Origin: Gemmatimonadetes bacterium bin94
GTDB lineage: Bacteria > Gemmatimonadota > Gemmatimonadetes > Longimicrobiales > Gaopeijiaceae
NCBI GenBank assembly: GCA_002238865.1
Contig: MPNE01000001.1
Span: forward strand, 62,001-126,000
Length of the DNA: 64,000 bases
Direction: 5' to 3'
Positions 45,356 to 51,647 of this stretch are shown here, one piece after another; within the stretch, counting starts at the first letter, position 1; each line of letters starts with the position of its first letter. A program made the translations under genes and the position numbers. The notes beneath the pieces were generated by a model that ran no database searches, was not told where the DNA came from, and saw only the letters and a program-made list of their open reading frames with translations.

Positions 45356-45961
45356 GTGCACCAACTGCCGAGAACCAGACGAATCGACACGGGATCAGAG
45401 TCCAGGCGGCACCGGGCCGCGCGGTCGGGGCACCGACCGACTCTTGTCCCCGTGACCTTCGCGGTTGCCGCCGCCATGGCCATCGCCGGTCCGGCTGCGG
45501 GCCAGGTGAGCGGCGGGGGACATGGTGCCTACCAGAGCGAGATATTCGAGGGCACCTTCGGCGCGGGAGCACGGCTCGAATTCGACCTCGGGTTTCTGAG
45601 GCGCGGGATTTCCCTTGCCGGGACCTGGGAAAGGTACTTCCCGGGCTGTGACGACTGCTCCCTGTGGGAGGCGGGTGGCCAGGTCATTGTAGGCGGCGAC
45701 AACCCCATCTACCTCGGTGTGGGCGCTGGCTTCCAGAGGTTCGAGCGCGGGGAGAGTCTGGAAGAGCTGGGCGACACCGACGACTGGATCTTCAGCATGG
45801 TCTTCGGCGTTCGCTTCCCCGTAATGCCGGTGATTACGCCGTTCGTCGAGTATCGGCAGGAGGTGGGATCGGAATCGGCGAACCAGCAGACGTTATCCGC
45901 GGGCATTCTCTTGCGTCCGGCTCGTGCCCGCCGCTCTCCCGCGCGCCCGGGGGCGCGATGA
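45356..45961 (+). CDS. Small outer-membrane beta-barrel coupled to the MCE transporter
   Basis: About 201 residues. A basic stretch and then VPVTFAVAAAMAIAGPAAGQ gives a signal sequence; GTG 45452 is a possible shorter start. The rest has amphipathic strands (ARLEFDLGFLRRGISLAGTWERY, PIYLGVGAGFQRFER, WIFSMVFGVRFPVM, TPFVEYRQEV) as in small OmpW/OmpA-like barrels. Its TGA overlaps the MlaE ATG as ATGA, so it is made together with the transporter. An outer-membrane partner for lipid transfer is a reasonable inference only. Strong GGGGGG sits before GTG 45356. Confidence 0.65.
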   Translation: MHQLPRTRRIDTGSESRRHRAARSGHRPTLVPVTFAVAAAMAIAGPAAGQVSGGGHGAYQSEIFEGTFGAGARLEFDLGFLRRGISLAGTWERYFPGCDDCSLWEAGGQVIVGGDNPIYLGVGAGFQRFERGESLEELGDTDDWIFSMVFGVRFPVMPVITPFVEYRQEVGSESANQQTLSAGILLRPARARRSPARPGAR

Positions 45962-46749
45962 ACGAAGCCGCCTTCTACAAACGTCCCGTCAGGGCGGTGG
46001 GACGGTGGTGGGAGGACTGGGCGAAGCACGCTGGACAGCTGGGTCTTCTGGTCTGGTCCACCTTTGTCGCAGCCGCGCGGCTCCGCGTCTCCTTCCGGGA
46101 ATTCCTGCACCAGCTCTACGTGATGGGCGTGCAGAGCATCCCCATCGTGATGGTCACGTCCGTTCTGTCCGGGATCGTGACCTCCCAGCAGGGTGGCTAC
46201 CAGATCACGGCGACGGTCCCGCTGTATGTGCTTGGCAGCGTCACGGTGACGAGCGTCGTGCTCGAACTTGCCCCGGTGCTCACGGCGGTGGTGCTCGTCG
46301 GCAGGGTAGGGGCGCGCATCACCGCCGAACTGGGCACCATGGTGGTCTCGGAGCAGATCGACGCCTACCGCTCGCTGGGACGGGATCCGGTCATCGCCCT
46401 GGCCGCGCCCCGGATCCTCGCCGGGATCCTCGTCATGCCGCTCCTCGTGGGCATCTCCAACACCGTGGGAATCCTATCGGGAATGGTCGCGGCGGACCTT
46501 ACGCTGGACCTCAGCTACGAGACGTTCCTCTACGGCGCGCGCCTCTACTGGCACTCCTGGGACATCGTGTATTCCTTCATGAAATCCCTGGCGTTCGGCT
46601 TTGCGATCCCGGTCATCGCGATTCACATGGGCTTCCGTACGCGCGGCGGCGCGGAGGGCGTCGGCAGCACCACGACGGCCTCGGTCATGTTTCAGACCCT
46701 GACCGTGCTCATTCTGGACGCCATGTTCCCACCCCTGTTCCTGAATTGA
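45958..46749 (+). CDS. mlaE: MCE lipid transporter permease (MlaE-like)
   Basis: A 263-residue permease of an ABC system for phospholipid traffic between the membranes. Five to six helices with the conserved LAPVLTAVVLVGRVGARITAELGTMVVSEQIDA and PRILAGILVMPLL, the MlaE/YrbE signature region. ATG 45958 overlaps the barrel stop by four bases. The ATPase follows after seven bases and the MCE protein after that, which gives the E-F-D order. No MlaB (STAS) or MlaC gene is found. Confidence 0.93.
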   Translation: MNEAAFYKRPVRAVGRWWEDWAKHAGQLGLLVWSTFVAAARLRVSFREFLHQLYVMGVQSIPIVMVTSVLSGIVTSQQGGYQITATVPLYVLGSVTVTSVVLELAPVLTAVVLVGRVGARITAELGTMVVSEQIDAYRSLGRDPVIALAAPRILAGILVMPLLVGISNTVGILSGMVAADLTLDLSYETFLYGARLYWHSWDIVYSFMKSLAFGFAIPVIAIHMGFRTRGGAEGVGSTTTASVMFQTLTVLILDAMFPPLFLN

Positions 46750-46756
46750 CCGCCCG

Positions 46757-47539
46757 ATGACGGCCTACCCGGTGATCCGGTATCGGAATACCCACAAGGC
46801 GTTCAAGCGGCCTGTGCTTTCCGGGGTGGACCTGGACATCCGCGAAGGCGAGATGTTCGCGCTCTTCGGCCCCTCGGGAACCGGCAAGAGCGTGCTGCTC
46901 AAGACGACCATCGGGCTGATCATCCCCGACCGCGGCGACGTGGTAGTGAACGGGACATCCGTCTACTTCGGGGGTGCGGGGGCAATGGATGCGGTTCGCA
47001 AGCAGGTGGGCTACGTGTTCCAGAACGCGGCGCTGTTCGATTCGATGGACGTGTACCGGAACGTGGAGATGGGGTTGCCCGTGGACCGGTTGCGCAGCAT
47101 GAGCAGGATCGACACCGCACGGGCGATCTGGAGGGCGCTGGAGATGGTGAATCTCGAGCCCGAGGCCGTGCTGTCCGTCCTGCCGGCCGAGCTCTCCGGC
47201 GGCATGAAGAAGCGGGTCGGGATCGCGCGAGCCATCGTGGGCCGGCCGGGCATCCTTCTCTGGGACGAGCCCACCACTGGGCTGGACCCGGTGAACACCG
47301 CCGCGGTGGAACGGCTGATCAAGCGACTCTCGGAGGAGTTGAGGGTCACGTCGGTTCTCGTCACCCACGATGTGGAGGGCGCCCTCTGGATGTGTGACCG
47401 GGTGGCCATGCTGGAGGGCGGGCGCATTCGGTTCCACGGCACACCGGACGCGTTCAAGGCCAGTGCCGACCCGGTTGTCAGGGCTTTCGTTGATCGAGCG
47501 GCCGCGGAGGCCGCCCTGGACGTTGTGGAGATGTCATGA
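46757..47539 (+). CDS. mlaF: MCE lipid transporter ATPase (MlaF-like)
   Basis: A 260-residue ABC ATPase. Walker A GPSGTGKS (38-45), signature LSGGMKKRVGIARA and Walker B ILLWDEPTTGLDP are intact; the LSGGM variant is typical of MlaF. It energises the permease encoded upstream. Its stop overlaps the next ATG as ATGA, coupling it to the MCE-domain protein. Confidence 0.94.
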   Translation: MTAYPVIRYRNTHKAFKRPVLSGVDLDIREGEMFALFGPSGTGKSVLLKTTIGLIIPDRGDVVVNGTSVYFGGAGAMDAVRKQVGYVFQNAALFDSMDVYRNVEMGLPVDRLRSMSRIDTARAIWRALEMVNLEPEAVLSVLPAELSGGMKKRVGIARAIVGRPGILLWDEPTTGLDPVNTAAVERLIKRLSEELRVTSVLVTHDVEGALWMCDRVAMLEGGRIRFHGTPDAFKASADPVVRAFVDRAAAEAALDVVEMS

Positions 47540-48483
47540 GCAACACCGATCCGTCACACAAGCGGCGCCTTACCGACGAAGAGGTCGCGCGCGCCGTACC
47601 GCCAACCGCCGGGGTCCGGGAGTTTCGCGTCGGGATCTTCGTCATTCTCGGAATCGTCGGGTTCTTCACGGTCCTCTTCCTGATGACCAGCCCGGGAACC
47701 TTTCGAAACCGCTACATGGTCACGACCCACGTTGACGACGCCCAGGGCATTCGCAGGGGCGACCCGGTGCGGATGCGGGGAATCAACATTGGAAGGGTGT
47801 ACCGATTCGAGATGCACCCGGAGGGCGGTGTCATGATCACCCTCGAGGTGGAGGGCGAGTGGCCCATTCCCCGGGGCTCCCGTACGGAGTTGAAGTCGAT
47901 GGGCGTGCTCGGGGGAATGGTGGTCTCGGTCTTGCCGGGTGACGGTGGAGGGGTCGTAGGCCCGCGGGAGCTGCTACCGGGCAGGACGGTCGACGACGTG
48001 CTCGACTCGGCCGGGGATCTGGCGACCGACGCGTCCAACGTCTTCGCCAGCATCCAGAATCTGCTTTCCGACTCCAACGTGGCTGGCGCCGGTGAAGCGA
48101 TCACCCAACTGCGCGAGGTACTGCGCGACCTGTCCGAAATCACCGAGGGACAGGCTGCCGAGGTGCGTTCCCTTACCGAGAGCCTCAAGCGGTCCGCGGC
48201 GAACGTGGAGGGGATAACGGGCGCGGAGGAGTGGGCGCGCACGCTGGCACTGGCCGAGGTCACGCTTGCCAACCTGGACAGGACCTCTGCCGGCATCAAC
48301 GAGACCGTCACGTCGCTCAACGTCATCGTTGCACGCATGGAGCGAGGGGAGGGCACCCTGGGCAGACTCTCCACCGACGAGACTCTGTATGAAACGCTCG
48401 ACGCGGCTGCGCAGAGTCTGCGCGAACTCCTCGACGACGTGAAGGCGAACCCGGGCCGGTACCTGAAGCTGGAGTTGTTCTAG
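47536..48483 (+). CDS. mlaD: MCE-domain substrate-binding protein (MlaD-like)
   Basis: A 315-residue protein with one N-terminal helix (residues 34-54, FRVGIFVILGIVGFFTVLFL), an MCE domain (about 60-145, VDDAQGIRRGDPVRMRGINIGRV, ELKSMGVLGGMVVSVLPG), and a long helical C-terminal part (160-315) with heptad-like repeats that may form the periplasmic tube or needle. The protein sits in the inner membrane facing outward. It is the last gene of the cassette and is convergent with the outer-membrane fusion. Confidence 0.92.
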   Translation: MSNTDPSHKRRLTDEEVARAVPPTAGVREFRVGIFVILGIVGFFTVLFLMTSPGTFRNRYMVTTHVDDAQGIRRGDPVRMRGINIGRVYRFEMHPEGGVMITLEVEGEWPIPRGSRTELKSMGVLGGMVVSVLPGDGGGVVGPRELLPGRTVDDVLDSAGDLATDASNVFASIQNLLSDSNVAGAGEAITQLREVLRDLSEITEGQAAEVRSLTESLKRSAANVEGITGAEEWARTLALAEVTLANLDRTSAGINETVTSLNVIVARMERGEGTLGRLSTDETLYETLDAAAQSLRELLDDVKANPGRYLKLELF

Positions 48484-48563: not shown

Positions 48564-51500
48564 CTACCAACCCGGTGCCACGTGGAAGCCCAGGTGCCAG
48601 CCCTTGTCGGGACGCTGCCAGGGGTACGCGTAATACCCTTCCAGGATCAGGAATCCCAGGAGGTTGAAGCGCGCCGACACCCCGGTGCTCACCAGCGGAA
48701 CCCGGTCCGGCGAGTCGCGTGACCAGGTCAGCGTCGCCGGGCGCTCGCTGTCCCACGCCATGCCGACATCCGCGAACACGGTGAACTCGATGGGCACGTA
48801 CGGGAAGTTGATGAGCCCGAACTCCTCGATGCCCGTGAAGGGGAGACGCAGCTCCAGGTTCGCCACGCCGAGCCGGTGTCCAAAGAGACGGTCGAGCTCG
48901 GGGCAACTGGATCCGCTGAGGTCGATTGTGCATTCCCGGTTCTGGTCGAACGACTGGTAGCTGTACCCCCTGATAAACGTCTCGTAGCCCAGGAAGTACG
49001 TCCCGAGCTGCTTTTCGTCGAGGGAGCGGATGTCTCCGTACCGCCCCAGGTGTATCCCGCGCATCGCCAGGGTGACGGGCCCCCCGTTGTTGAAGTAGCG
49101 CCTGTAGTCGAACGTCAGCGTCTGGAAGTTGACGGTGCCGTATGCCGTCTCGGCGCCGAGACGGAAACGCCCGCCCCGGACCGGACTGGTGAACGCCGCG
49201 TAGGAGTTGTCACCCACAAAAGCAATGGACGCGCTTGCCAGATTCAGGGCTTCCCGCGACGGCAGGCTCTTCCGCTCGAAGCCCACGATGCGCCCAAAGG
49301 GATCGGTGTAGTATGTGTCCTCTTCGACATCGAACGAATACCGGGTGAAGCCGAGCCCCCCCTCCAGACGCCGGGTCGCCGAAAGCGGGAACGCCATCAA
49401 CCCGTTCGCACCATCGATGAAGATGCGCTCCCGCCAGATGGTGTAGCCGTCCCGGTTGAAGCCGAAGTACTGCCTGAGGTATGGGGTGTGCTGGACGCTT
49501 CCCCCCCAGTTCCAGCGGTTTTTCTGGTTCAGGTAGAAGACCTGTCCGCCAATATCCTTGATGGTACCGTTTGCATTGAGGTAGACCCCCATGAAACGGT
49601 CTCCAAGCATGTCGCTGAAGAATGCCTGGGTGCCGCCGCCGATGTAGGAGCCGAAGGCATCGCCGCTCACCCCGACCGAGGGCTGGCCGACGTAGTCCAG
49701 CTGGAGGGAAGGGTCGTAGGCTTCGGCCTGGCTGCCGGTGTACACGCCTTCAGAGACCAGTCCCGTGAACGGGTCGTCGAGATAACCGGCGATGCGGCTC
49801 CGGATCCCGGGCCTTCCCGGAGGCAGCAGCCGCCCGGGGTGGTTGGTGGCCTCCGCGACCACATCGACATAGGTCGCCATGTCGTCGGGCCGGCCGGTGT
49901 TGACGATGTATCCCCGTTCATGGAATACGGAGAACGCGAGCAGGTCCAGGTCCGGCGAATACGTTAGCGCGGGCGAGAGCATCGTGATACCGCTGACGCC
50001 CGTCACGGCCCGGGTAATCCTGCGGGTTTCCCCGTCGCTCAGGTTCATGTGGTAGACGTCGGGGAACCCGTCGGGATCCGAGATGAAGAAGATCCCGTCG
50101 CCGGTCCGGTCGTACACCGGGTTGGTGTGCTTGGCATCGGCGAATACCGTGAACGGTTCCACAATCAGCGACTCGACGTCGATGAACGACAGCACGTAGT
50201 TGCCGAAGCTGAGTTCGGAGAAATTCGTCCCCGCGCCCCGGTCCGACACGAAGGCCAGAGTCCGTCCGTCGGGGTGCCAGGCAGCGTGGACGTCGGCGTG
50301 CTTGTCGTTTGTCAGCTGCTGCACGCTTCCGGTGTCGAAGTCGTAGAGGTAGAGGTCGGTGATTCCGCCCTTGAGCCCGGAGAAGGCGATCCGGGTGCCA
50401 TCGGGCGACCACGCAGGATTCTGAATCGCCCCCAGTCCCTCGATCTCGACGCGGTCCTCGATCCTGCCACTGGTGACGTCGAGAATCGCAAGCTGGTTGT
50501 TGCCGCCGGCCAGAATCACAATGGCCAGTTTGCGGCTGTCGGGAGACCACGAGCCACTGGTGTCGATATAGCGGATCCCGTCAATGTAAGGGGCCTCGTT
50601 CCGCTGCAGGGGTCGCAGGATCTCACCGGTCGCGACCTCGGCCAGGAACAGATCCATCGAGAAGAGGTCCTTCTCCGACTGGAAGACGATGTACTTCCCG
50701 TCGGGGCTCAGCGATGGCGCCACGTTGGTCCTTCCGGCTCCGCATTCCACGCAGAGCAACACGTCACCCGTCTCGTACGGATCGGTCTTGCCGGCCATCA
50801 GAGGCCGGTACTCGGTCTCGATCGCGTCCCACCACTGCATCGCCAACGTGTCGCTGGCCATGCCGTACACCTGCTCGATGGCAGGCTCCCATCCCGTTCT
50901 GAGCGCGGTACGGAAGAAATCCTGCACGGACTCGTCCCCGTACGTGCCTCCCAGGTAGGCGATCAGGCCCTGCCCGAAGCGATAGGCGAAGTACTTGGGG
51001 TCCCGCGTGATTTCCTTGAGGGTGGGTTTGTCGTCGCGCAGAATGTGGTCGCGGAGCCACATGGCCGTGTGGGGATGCTCCCGTCCCATCGAGAGGTACT
51101 CCGCCATGCCCTCGACCACCCACAGAGGCATCTGGGCCAACCTCATGATCCCGCCGCCGGTCCGGCTCTGGGAGATGTTGTACTGGAACGCGTGCACCAG
51201 CTCGTGGCCCAGAATGCGGTCCGTGTCCCGGTAGGATGCCGTGAGCGGCATGATCACCCGGTTCTTGAGGGACTCGGTGACGCCGCCGGTGCCCTGGCCG
51301 ATCGCCCCCTGAAGGGTGTTGGTCTGCTGGAAGTCCGGGTGGTCGGCGTAGATGACCAGCGGCTTCCGGGTGTCGAACTCGTGCTGGAAGACGCGGGAGA
51401 AGCGCTCGTACCACCGTTCCGCCATGCGCGCGATGTCCTCGACCGCTTCCTCGGCCTCGGGGTAGTAGTGGATCCTCCAGTTCTGCGTCGTCAGGACCTT

Positions 51501-51647
51501 GAAGTCGAACTGCTCGTACTGGACCTTGTTGCGGCCGAAGTACTGAGCTGATGCCGACGCCGGAAACGAAAGGAGGAGAGCGGCCAGGCCCGCCCACGCG
51601 AAACCGGGGGCGACGAGGCGCCCGCGTATCCTATTTGTCGATGACAT
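48564..51647 (-). CDS. Outer-membrane fusion: HELVH peptidase, TolB-like propeller, Omp85-type barrel
   Basis: A 1027-residue protein. ATG 51647 has GAGG seven bases upstream; residues 1-34 form a signal peptide (ending ASASA). Residues 40-300 are a peptidase-MA-like gluzincin with HELVH (His148, Glu149, His152) and EGMAEY (third ligand Glu183). Residues 310-640 form a PD40/TolB-like propeller (PSLSPDGKYIVFQSEKD, GSWSPDSRKLAIV, PAWSPDGTRIAFSG, AWHPDGRTLAFVSD, DGIFFISDPDG). Residues 680-1027 form a bacterial-surface-antigen (Omp85) barrel with FIRGYSYQSF and GVSARFNLLGFLILEGYYAYPW. The open frame upstream of 51647 is antisense to the BNR lipoprotein. The architecture is seen in Gemmatimonadota and related groups; its substrate is unknown. 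Confidence 0.86.
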   Translation of the reverse strand: MSSTNRIRGRLVAPGFAWAGLAALLLSFPASASAQYFGRNKVQYEQFDFKVLTTQNWRIHYYPEAEEAVEDIARMAERWYERFSRVFQHEFDTRKPLVIYADHPDFQQTNTLQGAIGQGTGGVTESLKNRVIMPLTASYRDTDRILGHELVHAFQYNISQSRTGGGIMRLAQMPLWVVEGMAEYLSMGREHPHTAMWLRDHILRDDKPTLKEITRDPKYFAYRFGQGLIAYLGGTYGDESVQDFFRTALRTGWEPAIEQVYGMASDTLAMQWWDAIETEYRPLMAGKTDPYETGDVLLCVECGAGRTNVAPSLSPDGKYIVFQSEKDLFSMDLFLAEVATGEILRPLQRNEAPYIDGIRYIDTSGSWSPDSRKLAIVILAGGNNQLAILDVTSGRIEDRVEIEGLGAIQNPAWSPDGTRIAFSGLKGGITDLYLYDFDTGSVQQLTNDKHADVHAAWHPDGRTLAFVSDRGAGTNFSELSFGNYVLSFIDVESLIVEPFTVFADAKHTNPVYDRTGDGIFFISDPDGFPDVYHMNLSDGETRRITRAVTGVSGITMLSPALTYSPDLDLLAFSVFHERGYIVNTGRPDDMATYVDVVAEATNHPGRLLPPGRPGIRSRIAGYLDDPFTGLVSEGVYTGSQAEAYDPSLQLDYVGQPSVGVSGDAFGSYIGGGTQAFFSDMLGDRFMGVYLNANGTIKDIGGQVFYLNQKNRWNWGGSVQHTPYLRQYFGFNRDGYTIWRERIFIDGANGLMAFPLSATRRLEGGLGFTRYSFDVEEDTYYTDPFGRIVGFERKSLPSREALNLASASIAFVGDNSYAAFTSPVRGGRFRLGAETAYGTVNFQTLTFDYRRYFNNGGPVTLAMRGIHLGRYGDIRSLDEKQLGTYFLGYETFIRGYSYQSFDQNRECTIDLSGSSCPELDRLFGHRLGVANLELRLPFTGIEEFGLINFPYVPIEFTVFADVGMAWDSERPATLTWSRDSPDRVPLVSTGVSARFNLLGFLILEGYYAYPWQRPDKGWHLGFHVAPGW

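Follow-up and report, generated by a model that had tools for sequence, protein, structure and literature searches.

What could a single protein do at the outer membrane when it carries a zinc-protease motif, a β-propeller and an Omp85 barrel in one chain? The question is raised by a gene in a 64,000-nucleotide stretch of DNA from Gemmatimonadetes bacterium bin94 (contig MPNE01000001.1, positions 62,001 to 126,000), which we call the window and whose own numbering is used below. An initial annotation had seen in this chain a possible system of self-contained quality control or secretion.

Architecture of the chain

The gene occupies 48564..51647 on the minus strand, where its frame runs from an ATG at 51647 to a stop at 48564 and encodes 1027 residues. 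Along these residues a signal peptide is followed by a gluzincin-fold zinc peptidase, a TolB-like propeller and a 16-strand Omp85 barrel, and the initial annotation was right to assign HELVH, EGMAEY, a PD40 propeller and an Omp85 barrel to one polypeptide at exactly this place. A chance assembly can be excluded, since the open frame has full-length homologues in three phyla, with identities of 70-81% in close relatives and about 25-56% at greater distance. Structure prediction, recommended for the placement of the domains, supported each of them. All three were recognised when predicted models were used in structure searches, the full-length model having been made with AlphaFold2 on a 20-sequence alignment (mean pLDDT 78), and the domain composition is thus established directly. 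A scan of the gene region for promoters and terminators gave nothing exceeding chance.

Conservation was assessed in an alignment of 28 diverse sequences from three phyla, among them a paralogue from the window genome with 23% identity. By sequence reading, residues 1-34 (51546..51647, minus strand) form a Sec signal peptide with no lipobox, cleaved after ASA and before Q35 of QYFG; this segment is weakly conserved in the alignment and has a model pLDDT below 50. The mature N-terminus that follows, residues 35-47 (QYFGRNKVQYEQF; 51507..51545, minus strand), has the highest mean majority fraction of all (0.72), yet the stretch, with its QYFGRNKVQY, is poorly ordered and of low confidence in the model. 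Possibly it binds a partner, as the N-terminus of TolB binds TolA.

The peptidase domain spans residues 48-286 (50790..51506, minus strand) and, folded alone, reached a pLDDT of 83 (model medb9d1689a5a). Its matches in the PDB include M9 collagenases (8jt1, Z 16.1), M30 lugdulysin (7bb8, Z 15.9) and M1 aminopeptidases (Z about 13), and gluzincin peptidases make up almost all of the top 50 matches, with Z between 12 and 16. The likeness to the M9 and M30 domains lies in the fold (Z about 16) and in the HExxH...E...Y arrangement, whereas sequence identity to them is merely 11-15%, and we know of no Omp85 context for either. Pfam applied to this protein alone brought neither peptidase nor Omp85 families to their cut-offs, BSP scoring 18.1 bits over the HELVH region against a threshold of 23.8. 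Among the 28 diverse relatives BSP was found in 21 and Peptidase_MA_2 in 14 (best 1.9e-14).

Residues 295-594 (49866..50765, minus strand) constitute the propeller. The evidence for it is PD40 with E=5.9e-23 and three individually significant repeats, an NCBIfam TolB match of 7.5e-36, and a superposition of residues 317-591 on TolB 3iax with Z 27.8 and an rmsd of 2.2 over 244 residues. The model has 24 strands in this region and therefore six blades, and Pfam finds PD40 in 28/28 relatives. The six-bladed propeller is what the protein shares with TolB; the separate N-terminal domain of TolB is absent and the propeller is instead fused to a peptidase and a barrel. PD40 propeller proteins are abundant in the window genome in general, with more than 100 TolB-profile matches in 4.4 Mb.

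Behind a variable linker (residues 595-648; 49704..49865, minus strand), which has the lowest mean majority fraction in the mature protein (0.32), lies the barrel, residues 649-1027 (48564..49703, minus strand). Its count of 16 strands (DSSP) sets aside one short loop-4 hairpin. Model residues 650-1025 match BamA 8bnz with Z 20.7 and an rmsd of 4.5 over 301 residues; a PDB BamA profile matches the barrel at 3e-12, the NCBIfam BamA match is weak (2.9e-6, residues 735-995), and Pfam Omp85 is found in nine of the 28 relatives (best 2.4e-15). The loop-6 (V)RGF/Y motif of Omp85 proteins is present as RGY at residues 893-895 (48963..48971, minus strand), with R and G in 28/28 sequences, and aligns with LRGY of the BamA and IRGF of the TamA-like protein encoded in the same genome. 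With the strands so counted, RGY would sit between strands 11 and 12 of the model, which is also its place in the established topology of BamA. Two acidic partners accompany it, each aligned with its equivalent in the same two proteins and each present in 28/28 sequences: E932 (48852..48854, minus strand), the counterpart of the barrel-wall Glu near loop 6, and D960 in FADVG (48768..48770, minus strand), the counterpart of the Asp in BamA FYDAG. A BamA-similar barrel with the loop-6 motif and its acidic partners places the protein in the Omp85 superfamily. It has no POTRA domain, either by Pfam or in the model, which passes from propeller to linker to barrel, but membership does not require one, and the 2014 classification admits subfamilies without POTRA, WD40-Omp85 and others (PMC4104836). 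Judged from sequence, the invariant loop-6 residues suggest that the barrel may retain an assembly or gating function beyond that of a plain anchor.

The active site and the distribution of the family

Is the peptidase a working enzyme? The HELVH motif (residues 148-152; 51192..51206, minus strand) has H148, E149 and H152 in 28/28 sequences, and in EGMAEY (residues 179-184; 51096..51113, minus strand) E179, G180 and A182 are found in 28/28 and E183 in 27/28. We propose E179 as the third zinc ligand. Y222 (50982..50984, minus strand) is also present in 28/28 and is probably the catalytic (transition-state) tyrosine, since it lies 73 residues after E149, the spacing that separates E242 from Y315, the residues mutated in lugdulysin entry 7bb9. 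The protein thus combines HExxH, a downstream Glu ligand and the gluzincin fold, as expected of clan MA(E). Motif search or alignment showed the HExxH and EG motifs to be retained in every one of 55 loci, the window copy counted, and in the two Acidobacteriota loci L098 and L099 both HELVH and EGM(A/C)EY are intact. The initial annotation had made its reading depend on conservation of the zinc ligands in orthologues, and the ligands proved to be invariant. A pseudoenzyme reading was rejected, because the whole active-site set is invariant and not even the 23%-identical paralogue departs from it.

A survey of the architecture across phyla, which had also been recommended, found the family in nearly all Gemmatimonadota (148/150 genomes), with matches in 56 of 59 close relatives. 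It is also present in many Bacteroidota, the phylum of Sphingobacterium (89/148), and Acidobacteriota (58/119), counts in which many matches cover the peptidase-propeller part alone, in frames that are about 950-1130 codons long; apparently they belong to paralogous classes in which the C-terminal part has diverged. The architecture is not unique to the window genome, and its retention across the Gemmatimonadota is a direct observation. In one relative of the same order, two family members stand in tandem, 214 bp apart (L126:5875-12459).

The paralogue in the window genome (G000:C80; L045:2039-5071) is its one other protein with this order of peptidase, propeller and barrel. It lacks the FGxNK motif and keeps the zinc motif as HELVH and EGLAT. 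The genome also encodes a BamA-type protein (C68, L001), a TamA-like protein and a full-length TolB match; with all of these present, we rejected the idea that the window protein replaces TolB or BamA.

One relative has no barrel at all. On plasmid pSR116 of Salinibacter ruber (L130:5911-7812) a 633-residue protein consists of a signal peptide, a peptidase with HELVH and EGMAEY and a propeller, and in a quick tree it is nested in a clade whose other members bear the barrel. By this evidence the enzyme unit may be separable from the barrel and able to work without it, although a single plasmid gene could possibly be a decaying copy. Its annotation reads 'basic secretory protein-like protein' and nothing more. 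A second barrel-less copy, in genome G143, was discarded, its truncation being the end of a contig.

Proposed function and its alternatives

We favour the reading that the protein is an outer-membrane-anchored periplasmic zinc peptidase, to which we give a probability of about 60%. The chain would be exported via Sec, and its C-terminal barrel, whose last residue is aromatic as in other substrates of BAM, would insert into the outer membrane. With an even number of strands a barrel has both termini in the periplasm, so that propeller and peptidase would then face that compartment. The propeller would most likely be a docking or recognition surface that recruits a substrate or partner, and the gluzincin domain would cleave the envelope protein so brought to it. 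Besides this periplasmic placement, we infer active catalysis, recognition by the propeller and a housekeeping role in the envelope. A periplasmic, anchored peptidase is preferred because of the even-stranded topology and because the enzyme domain of PlpD, another Omp85 protein, is experimentally periplasmic (PMC11116518). Of the two roles raised by the initial annotation, secretion is thus disfavoured by barrel topology and by PlpD and quality control is possible, while the tethering of protease and propeller to the barrel is upheld by sequence, structure prediction and conservation.

Could the protein instead be an assembly factor, with a BamA- or TamA-like barrel, a propeller in place of BamB or TolB and the peptidase as a checkpoint that destroys stalled clients? 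The invariance of RGY, E932 and D960 and the choice of BamA as the best barrel match would fit, as would the suggestion of Heinz and Lithgow that WD40-Omp85 proteins resemble a BamA-BamB fusion (PMC4104836). However, BamA is an essential assembly factor with POTRA domains, which are absent here, and the genome already has a BamA and a TamA-like protein. Moreover, PlpD illustrates that an enzyme-bearing Omp85 barrel need not be an assembly factor (PMC11116518), and the loop-6 residues are perhaps required for barrel stability alone. We consider this explanation unlikely.

More questions come from the gene neighbourhood in Bacteroidota. In one clade (L040/L066, L082, L084, L085, L086 and L087) six orthologues lie directly behind a same-strand gene for PBP1A, identified by Pfam, with a gap of 49 bp in L040 and one of 168 bp in L122. 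The second clade (L074-L081 and L083) has a divergent PBP2 gene adjoining in nine of nine cases, and in L121 a RodA-like gene lies next to PBP2, these two having been named from sequence. The loci next to peptidoglycan synthase genes further include L161-L164 in the first group (with L040, L066, L082, L084-L087 and L122) and L168-L171 in the second (with L074-L081, L083 and L121). A quick tree separates the two clades and supports each fully. Adjacency in two clades suggests, on gene order, a role that couples the outer membrane to the cell wall, with the propeller or peptidase regulating a PBP or another cell-wall enzyme. Yet gene order is the sole source of this argument, the pattern was recognised post hoc, and each clade perhaps represents one inherited arrangement. 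No PBP neighbour was seen in any Gemmatimonadota or Acidobacteriota locus searched, in the paralogous classes (28 loci, L132-L150 and L152-L160) or at L151, where one genome has a second, orthologue-like copy. A coupling role therefore seems to us rather doubtful. Slightly more doubtful is its specific form, in which the barrel would hold peptidase and propeller against the cell wall to control PBP1A or PBP2-RodA in place of Lpo/CpoB-type factors.

It is also conceivable that peptidase and propeller reach the cell surface through the barrel, by a type Vd-like self-secretion. Such a route was first proposed for PlpD, in which an enzyme domain likewise precedes an Omp85 barrel, but the PlpD domain was later placed in the periplasm (PMC11116518). 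The cargo would here amount to about 550 residues in two large, folded domains, and the freestanding barrel-less form speaks against the idea as well; we regard it as very improbable.

Lastly, a cluster of mlaE-like, mlaF and mlaD genes (window 45958-48483; MlaD and ABC_tran identified by Pfam, the mlaE-like gene named from its read frame) lies convergent with the gene in the window and in close relatives. Although MlaF and MlaD follow in most same-family relatives whose contigs extend that far, a role as outer-membrane partner of the MlaEFD lipid transporter is extremely unlikely, since the order is conserved only within the window's own family, with no such linkage in other families or phyla, and convergent genes would not be co-transcribed.

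Comparison with known systems

An anchored periplasmic peptidase has a functional analogue in BepA, an M48 periplasmic protease with HExxH that acts at the BAM complex. The analogy is one of function only, as BepA is a separate protein with TPR repeats and is not fused to a barrel. Another name that invites comparison leads elsewhere: we take PF00149 to be a metallophosphoesterase family and not a peptidase of the type found here. It is PF00149 that defines the 'Metallo' class of Omp85 proteins, termed metalloprotease (PMC4104836).

The closest published group is WD40-Omp85, described by Heinz and Lithgow in 2014 (PMC4104836) and still listed as uncharacterised in the 2024 paper on PlpD (PMC11116518). 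With a TolB-like propeller ahead of an Omp85 barrel and without POTRA, the window protein fits this subfamily; it differs from the subfamily as published in the gluzincin domain, with its complete active site, that precedes the propeller. The main text of PMC4104836 mentions no peptidase for WD40-Omp85, and our full-text literature searches, which covered largely papers outside subscription and the main text of the 2014 article, found none described. WD40-Omp85 thus includes proteins with a complete and strictly conserved peptidase that is near-universal in one phylum, and their function is therefore directly testable. If the PBP neighbours reflect function, they would further point to coordination of outer membrane and cell wall in some phyla.

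Like the window protein, PlpD, of the patatin-Omp85 group, carries an enzyme domain ahead of its Omp85 barrel, and it is the one studied Omp85 protein of this kind (PMC11116518). PlpD joins a patatin phospholipase to one POTRA, whereas the window protein joins a zinc peptidase to a propeller. The zinc peptidase would be a second type of enzyme, after PlpD, held at the outer membrane by an Omp85 barrel.
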